The translations under genes and the position numbers were made by a program. Positions 30,796 to 31,875 of a stretch of DNA of 34,385 bases are shown here, piece after piece. The notes under the pieces were generated by a model. That model was not told the origin of the DNA. It was given only the letters and a program-made list of their open reading frames with translations, and did not search any database. Source of the stretch: an uncultured Candidatus Pelagibacter sp. (lineage in GTDB: Bacteria; Pseudomonadota; Alphaproteobacteria; Pelagibacterales; Pelagibacteraceae); the NCBI GenBank assembly GCA_905618805.1, contig CAJQSZ010000023.1, forward strand, positions 1 through 34,385, given 5' to 3'. Position 1 is the first letter of the stretch; each line of letters opens with the position of its first letter.

Positions 30796-31128
30796 ATGAA
30801 CATGACAACTTCATATTTATTTTTAATCTTGGCTGTAGTGCTAGGGGTTGCTTCAAATAGTTTTGCAAAAAGTGCTGAGGGCTTTACCCTTTTTTACCCA
30901 AGTATCATTACAGCAATAACAATTGTTTTGTGCATGTATGCACTTTCGATGGTAATGAAAAATATCCCTATAGGAGTGACTTACGCTTCCTTTGCTGGCC
31001 TTGCGATTATTGCAACAGTTATTGTTGGTGTAATCAAATACAATCAAGTTCCTAACTTTTATTCAATAATAGGTTTGATTTTTATTATTGTAGGTGTGTT
31101 GATGGTCAACTTGTTAGGAAATAATTAG
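30796..31128 (+). CDS. Small multidrug resistance (SMR/EmrE) family protein
   Basis: Four TM helices; AEGFTLFYPS, IPIGVTYASFAGLAIIATVIVGVIKYNQ, IIGLIFIIVGVLMVNLL. Confidence 0.85.
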   Translation: MNMTTSYLFLILAVVLGVASNSFAKSAEGFTLFYPSIITAITIVLCMYALSMVMKNIPIGVTYASFAGLAIIATVIVGVIKYNQVPNFYSIIGLIFIIVGVLMVNLLGNN

Positions 31129-31299
31129 TACTGACAGAATTTTAAATTTTTTTACGGGAAAAAAAATTGTAAGAAGTGTTTCTTAAATTATTGAAACCCT
31201 ATTACTATGTTAATTTGTATTCAATATATTTATTTATCAAAAAGTAAAATAAATATTTTGATATTAAACTTTCAAAGTATTATTATTGATTATCAATAT

Positions 31300-31469
31300 A
31301 AAGGAGGATGATGATCAATAGTTTATCACCACCTGACACATAACTGGTGTGATCTAAGTAACCTAAAGCAAGAAGCCAAAAAAACATAAATCCATTATTA
31401 TGGATTTTAGCGTATACCGCTAACTTATAGGGGAACTCTTTTGGGGTTTACTCAAAGGGTGACCCCCTT
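31300..31469 (+). ncRNA. Candidate structured RNA (series of hairpins, no credible ORF); strand uncertain
   Basis: Hairpins ATCA(C)CACC/GGTGTGAT (31325-31353), AATCCAT/ATGGATT (31389-31406), TTAGCG/CGCTAA (31407-31423), AAGGG/CCCTT (31455-31469) in an otherwise noncoding gap. Confidence 0.4.
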
Positions 31470-31812
31470 AAAAATTAGCTGGTAAAGTGCAAGAACCATC
31501 ATCACTTAAAATAATTTCAAATTCATCAACAACATTAGATATATCTAAAGAAGAATATAAGTGAGGAAACAAATTTCCATCAGATGCCTGTTCCCACAGT
31601 AAATGATCAAGTTTTAAAGTGTCCACTTTTAATAAAATTAAATTTTTTTGGTTTTTATAAAAATTTTTAAGCGTTCCATCAACTTGCTCTTTTCCTGAAA
31701 AATGAATATACCCATCCTCCAAATCTTTTTTAGAGGGGATAAATTGATTTTTTTTCTTAGCTTCTAACCATTCAAGTTTGGTGCATATTTTATAAACAAA
31801 TTTTAAATTCAT
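31468..31812 (-). CDS. DUF952 family protein
   Basis: VYKICTKLEWLEAKKKNQFIPSKKDLEDGYIHFSGKEQVDGTLKNFYKNQKNLILLKVDTLKL...WEQASDGNLFPHLY. Confidence 0.88.
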   Translation of the reverse strand: MNLKFVYKICTKLEWLEAKKKNQFIPSKKDLEDGYIHFSGKEQVDGTLKNFYKNQKNLILLKVDTLKLDHLLWEQASDGNLFPHLYSSLDISNVVDEFEIILSDDGSCTLPANF

Positions 31813-31851: not shown

Positions 31852-31875
31852 AACTTCCCTCTTTCGAGGGAAGTT
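31852..31875 (-). terminator. Perfect 10-bp hairpin with GAAA loop (minus strand)
   Basis: AACTTCCCTC-TTTC-GAGGGAAGTT on the plus strand; the minus strand reads AACTTCCCTC-GAAA-GAGGGAAGTT, a GNRA tetraloop. Confidence 0.5.

Follow-up and report, generated by a model that had tools for sequence, protein, structure and literature searches.

Comparison with its homologs indicates that the block at positions 31300-31470 on the plus strand of the window (the whole analysed stretch of 34,385 nucleotides from an uncultured Candidatus Pelagibacter sp.) belongs to a conserved RNA family confined to the SAR11 family Pelagibacteraceae. At the 5' end of the RNA lie a strong predicted ribosome-binding site and a conserved open reading frame (mini-ORF) of 6-10 codons ending in PP(D/E)T-stop, and comparative sequence analysis shows selection on the RNA as well as on its three hairpins. 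It is a genuine SAR11 RNA family, apparently undescribed, with a conserved mini-ORF and putatively of the dual-function or arrest-peptide kind. As a possible explanation, which we favour tentatively, it may be a dual-function regulatory RNA of about 175 nt (about 31293-31470, plus strand) whose mini-ORF would be translated and in which a pause at Pro-Pro-Asp could shape folding, stability or availability. SAR11 bacteria rank with the most numerous cells of the ocean. Their genomes are streamlined, the gaps between genes are very short, and few regulators are known in them. An accessory unit of about 270 bp with its own promoter in a large share of SAR11 would represent an unrecognised layer of control, and its conserved mini-ORF is too short for gene callers.

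The RNA lies in a gap of 339 bp between an SMR gene ending at 31128 and a DUF952 gene with its stop codon at 31468 on the minus strand, the two flanking genes being convergent. The initial annotation had reported in this gap a Shine-Dalgarno-like string followed by a possible ORF of 11 codons, several stems including two perfect ones, and GGGG/CCCC-rich sequence. All of these were recovered in place (Table 1), the last of them being the long GGGG...CCCC hairpin. It had also proposed an sRNA gene, which is supported by our analysis, with the RNA and a short peptide predicted in one transcript.

Table 1. Features of the RNA locus and its upstream region, in window coordinates.
Feature	Position	Strand	Sequence	Remark
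Upstream dyad	31212..31265		AATTTGTATTCAATATATTTATTT (31212-31235) + AAATAAATATTTTGATATT (31247-31265)	
Predicted promoter	31258..31286	+	TTGATA-17-TATTAT	consensus scan, 10/12 matches
Shine-Dalgarno (SD)	31300..31307	+	AAAGGAGG	kept in 92/92 loci with intact ORF
Mini-ORF	31308..31343 (start 31308 or 31311)	+	MMINSLSPPDT-stop	C-terminus PP(D/E)T conserved
Competing pairings	31324..31352	+	ATCACC(A)CC with GGTGTGAT after the stop codon, or CCACCT (Pro-Pro codons) with SD AGGAGG	
Hairpin H2	31388..31407	+	AAATCCAT-TATT-ATGGATTT (arms 31388-31395/31400-31407)	compensatory variants AUCC/GGAU, GUCC/GGAC, UUCC/GGAA, UCU/AGA
Hairpin H3	31407..31423	+	TTAGCG-TATAC-CGCTAA (arms T(T)AGCG/CGCTA(A), 31407-31412/31418-31423)	GCC-AAAGA-GGC in most congeners
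Hairpin H4	31430..31467	+	GGGG, asymmetric internal loop, ACTCTTTTGG/CTCAAAGGGT, CCCC(C)	strong covariation, both segments

Folding of 31300-31470 gave -46.7 kcal/mol for the plus strand (z = -3.5; none of 200 shuffles was as low), and the minus strand folded more weakly (z = -1.7). Conservation among homologs is far stronger evidence for an RNA than a single folding score. The covariance analysis of SAR11 homologs, which had been proposed as a check, revealed that hairpins H2-H4 covary and that both sequence and structure are conserved. In 40 diverse members 92.5% of the cells of H2-H4 were paired, with nine doubly changed pairs, compared to at most 62% in slid controls. Similar results were obtained for 80 loci that had been fetched by the ORF pattern only and thus form a separate test of the hairpins: 97.2% of the cells were paired (99% in H3), eight pairs were doubly changed and slid controls were far lower; this alignment was fitted to the covariance model R2 (described below) and some of its genomes overlap the 40-member set. 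Moreover, G-U pairs exceeded A-C mismatches (33 vs. 13), which favours the plus strand.

The asymmetric internal loop of H4 is kept among relatives, and in most loci 0-25 nt separate the end of the hairpin from the stop codon of the convergent gene. H4 is probably both the 3' end of the RNA and a two-way terminator shared with the convergent gene. For the 3' domain a three-way junction was also considered; the long hairpin was preferred, as the changes found in genome G001 keep it paired. At the 5' end ViennaRNA ensembles yielded competing pairings, of which the preferred one differs by clade, and a universal 5' hairpin was looked for across the clades and not found. These predicted pairings round the ORF are only suggestive.

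The arrangement of SD, ATG and an ORF of 6-10 codons ending in (P)P-D/E-T-stop was present in 92 of 94 loci, with a distance of 3-11 nt between AGGAGG and ATG in nearly every copy of the family. Homologous peptides comprise MNLSPPDT, MLRITPPDT, MLILSPPDT, MNQMPPDT, MLKLPDT and MSPPET, and their N-terminal residues are unconserved. Towards the end of the ORF the codons vary (CCA/CCG with TTG in one clade, CCT/CCA, GAC/GAT with GAA in one clade, ACT/ACA, TAG/TAA/TGA), almost all changes being synonymous at the wobble position; the sole replacements are leucine for proline and glutamate for aspartate. The spacing between ATG and the Pro codon ranges from 9 to 21 nt, yet both are in frame in all 42 distinct sequences (1/3 expected; binomial 9e-21, an optimistic value since the sequences are related). 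In the window the start of the ORF is shifted upstream compared to its relatives and the frame is retained.

PP(D/E)T-stop is a conserved C-terminal slow-peptide-bond motif in all clades but one, and this LPDT clade indicates that a double proline is not absolute in the family. Pro-Pro-Asp/Glu slows ribosomes when EF-P is missing. Since EF-P is encoded in 12 of 12 genomes checked, carriers and non-carriers of the RNA alike, pausing at Pro-Pro-Asp would be conditional. Copies from the sister genus g89 (L122-L125) combine the hairpins with the 6-codon ORF MSPPET and a TGA stop and are devoid of the conserved CTG after the stop codon; the upstream dyad is absent there as well. Another copy (L121, G171:C6:25787-25937) has no good Shine-Dalgarno sequence or ATG and weakened hairpins, and is probably decayed.

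A DNA search of 150 relatives identified four clear congener homologs (76-84% DNA identity), each located between DUF952 and an SMR-type or similar small membrane-protein gene. The alignment of these five sequences keeps the promoter region, AGGAGG, the end of the ORF and every hairpin. Short blast matches (L007-L017) were rejected as homologs, being chance AT-rich pieces. Of 345 relatives, 92 gave full-length matches to the covariance model R1, which was built from the window and the four homologs; 91 of these belong to the genus of the window, its own genome included. The sole match in another family (G094, L107) was marginal, had no ORF, overlapped coding sequence and was rejected. With R2, built from 40 diverse members, 163 of 398 Pelagibacterales genomes (about 40%) were matched; all but five are of the window's genus and the five come from two further genera of its family, Pelagibacteraceae. 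A class-wide sample of 386 genomes contained three matches, all from the window's genus, and none that was convincing outside Pelagibacteraceae.

All 80 loci fetched by the ORF pattern carry the R2 RNA (78 at full length, two cut by the locus end), and in these comparisons a search for either the ORF pattern or the hairpin body recovers the other. The 80 named ORF-pattern matches, among the matches listed, were all from SAR11 (Pelagibacteraceae, Pelagibacter or Pelagibacterales records), and no match to the pattern was obtained in viral contigs. R2 matched 78 of 151 near-complete Pelagibacterales genomes; as about half of them are without a match, the RNA is dispensable. Its absence is probably real, because 22 near-complete genomes in which the model found no match are devoid of the ORF pattern, too. 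The RNA is single copy, most second matches being opposite-strand echoes of the palindromic hairpins or weak chance matches.

Congeners keep a TTGAAT-like -35 and a TAnnTT-like -10 box spaced approximately as in the window, and from the predicted promoter the transcript would be expected to start near 31292-31295. The dyad further upstream has in congeners the form AGGTTGTATTCAA..AAATAAATT..TTGAATACAACCT, with two inverted arms of which the right one overlaps the -35 box. It was found upstream of nearly all own-genus copies of the RNA in differing genomic contexts, and in 10 genomes AGGTTGTATTCAA...TTGAATACAACCT (at most 3 mismatches) was essentially confined to the RNA locus. The dyad is a probable regulator site or divergent promoter, and the RNA's own promoter is probably regulated. 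The dyad resembles back-to-back promoters, each TTGAATACAACCT arm being a possible -35 box, and on its minus side a TAGATT-like -10, after which comes CTCGATATC, is conserved as well. On this minus-strand side no conserved product was identified.

In 79 of 82 loci the gene that follows the RNA is encoded on the other strand, and in the named loci it is convergent in 74 of 74 testable cases, 71 of them within 25 nt. The neighbours form 16 right-hand and 16 left-hand clusters, some of which are fragments of one family, and include DUF952, a CxxCH cytochrome-like protein, an aminotransferase, an MFS transporter and an acetyltransferase (names apart from DUF952 were assigned by inspection). Because the downstream gene is convergent and stems from many families, the RNA is read as a free-standing transcription unit and not as a cis leader. 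Judged by this gene context it is without a cis target, there being no downstream gene to control, and the unit behaves as an accessory cassette of about 270 bp, consisting of the dyad promoter, the RNA with its ORF and a terminator hairpin set against the end of a convergent gene. Linkage to one neighbour gene was considered and rejected, as in G351 that gene has neither the RNA nor a remnant of it at its side. This locus (L271, G351:C1:1144297-1144818) holds the convergent neighbour of one RNA clade, and G351 carries the RNA elsewhere, at 673873-674032 on the minus strand.

From these sequence features we infer transcription, translation, Pro-Pro-Asp pausing and trans action of the RNA. Ribosomes would translate the mini-ORF and pause at Pro-Pro-Asp/Glu just ahead of the stop codon. 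The paused ribosome could cover or free the Pro-Pro codons, which may pair with the SD or with the bases after the stop codon, and this pairing would decide on the stability of the RNA and its freedom to act. The hairpin body might then regulate in trans, so that the dual-function RNA would resemble an arrest-peptide sensor without an attached operon.

Several other explanations have to be weighed against this one. The initial annotation had also suggested a leader with an upstream peptide, of which the peptide is supported. The order of SD, short ORF, alternative hairpins and terminator is the classic one for a cis-acting leader or attenuator of a downstream gene, but a same-strand gene is absent downstream and the convergent genes counted above belong to differing families, which renders the probability of such a leader practically negligible. 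It is very improbable that the block belongs to the 3' end or terminator of the convergent neighbour and is read on the minus strand. In nearly all loci H4 does adjoin the stop codon of the convergent gene, and several loci have T runs after the minus-strand copy of the hairpins; against this stand the many unrelated neighbours, the promoter, SD and ORF conserved on the other strand, and the G-U asymmetry in favour of the plus strand. A shared terminator is likely, yet it accounts for H4 only.

Quite improbable, too, is a purely non-coding trans-acting sRNA whose ORF is a by-product of SD/anti-SD pairing (AGGAGG with CCACCT). The SD was predicted to be mostly paired in 39 of 40 sequences and CCACCT is able to pair with AGGAGG, but such pairing leaves GAY-ACW-TAR and the invariably in-frame ATG unexplained, and changes from CCT to CCA retain proline while a pair is lost. 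The main rival of the dual-function reading is a plain message for a bioactive micropeptide 6-10 residues long, in which PP(D/E)T would be the functional part and the hairpins would only stabilise and terminate the transcript; we regard it as somewhat unlikely. Conservation of the last residues at the peptide level, including the TAG/TAA/TGA switches and the D/E exchange, agrees with it, as do the very strong Shine-Dalgarno sequence and the RNA's own predicted promoter. The variable N-terminus and length do not, and H2 and H3 are conserved beyond the needs of a terminator. C-terminal-only conservation would equally result from an arrest motif, which it appears to suit, and a C-terminally acting micropeptide would look alike. 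A bolder proposal, which we consider unlikely, is a free-standing ribosome-arrest RNA with an arrest motif of 6-10 residues as its only coding content, a translation-state sensor acting in trans without an operon, carried as an accessory cassette head-on to the 3' ends of many genes. EF-P activity and proline/threonine charging are examples of what might be sensed. The locus would make a clear case for testing if a stand-alone RNA can be served by an arrest-type peptide.

The dual-function sRNAs SgrS/SgrT, Spot 42/SpfP and RNAIII/delta-haemolysin have ORFs of about 15 codons or more that are conserved over the whole peptide. The new RNA would share with them a free-standing transcript, an ORF and a structured, terminator-ended body, whereas its ORF has 6-10 codons and is conserved at the C-terminus alone. 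The leader peptides TnaC, SpeFL and Erm sit upstream of the operon that they control. Common to these leaders and the new RNA are a tiny ORF after a strong SD, conserved C-terminal residues at the stop codon and possible alternative hairpins; in contrast to them, the new RNA is followed by no gene.

That the block might be a rearranged known RNA was not supported, since a scan of the window with Rfam 15 gave no match at gathering score and chance-level matches only at relaxed limits. No well-known RNA family was thus found that would explain it fully. The RNA in 14 homologous loci did not match Rfam either, the only match in these loci being to an unrelated TPP riboswitch at L043:2068-2156, just under the gathering score (49.3 of 54.3 bits). 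The Listeria RNA rli52 (RF01480) overlapped weakly with the hairpins (20 bits, E = 2), far below its gathering score of 70 bits, and kinship is not supported. Neither a tRNA nor a tmRNA was found in the window by ARAGORN, and Rfam gave no tmRNA match.

A survey of 'Ca. P. ubique' described the motifs rpsB, rpsL, ffh, SAM-V, rhtB, pntA, bablM and SAR11_0636 and proposed one of its candidate RNAs as separately transcribed (PMC2704228). Compared by description only, none of these motifs fits the new RNA, and what SAR11_0636 and the other candidates have in common with it is being a SAR11 RNA. SAR11_0636 is described as a junction of three stems whose doubly bulged P2 is conserved (PMC2704228), whereas the new RNA has serial hairpins and a mini-ORF; neither the described junction nor the bulged P2 was seen in two alignments of the family. 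Promoters of HTCC7211 have been mapped in a Red Sea primary transcriptome (PMC5069720). We found no paper on the RNA, its motif or its expression in the open-access literature, a scope outside which most subscription journals fall. Besides, a strong terminator-like hairpin, AACTTCCCTCGAAAGAGGGAAGTT, is located at 31852-31875 on the minus strand of the window between the DUF924 and DUF952 genes.
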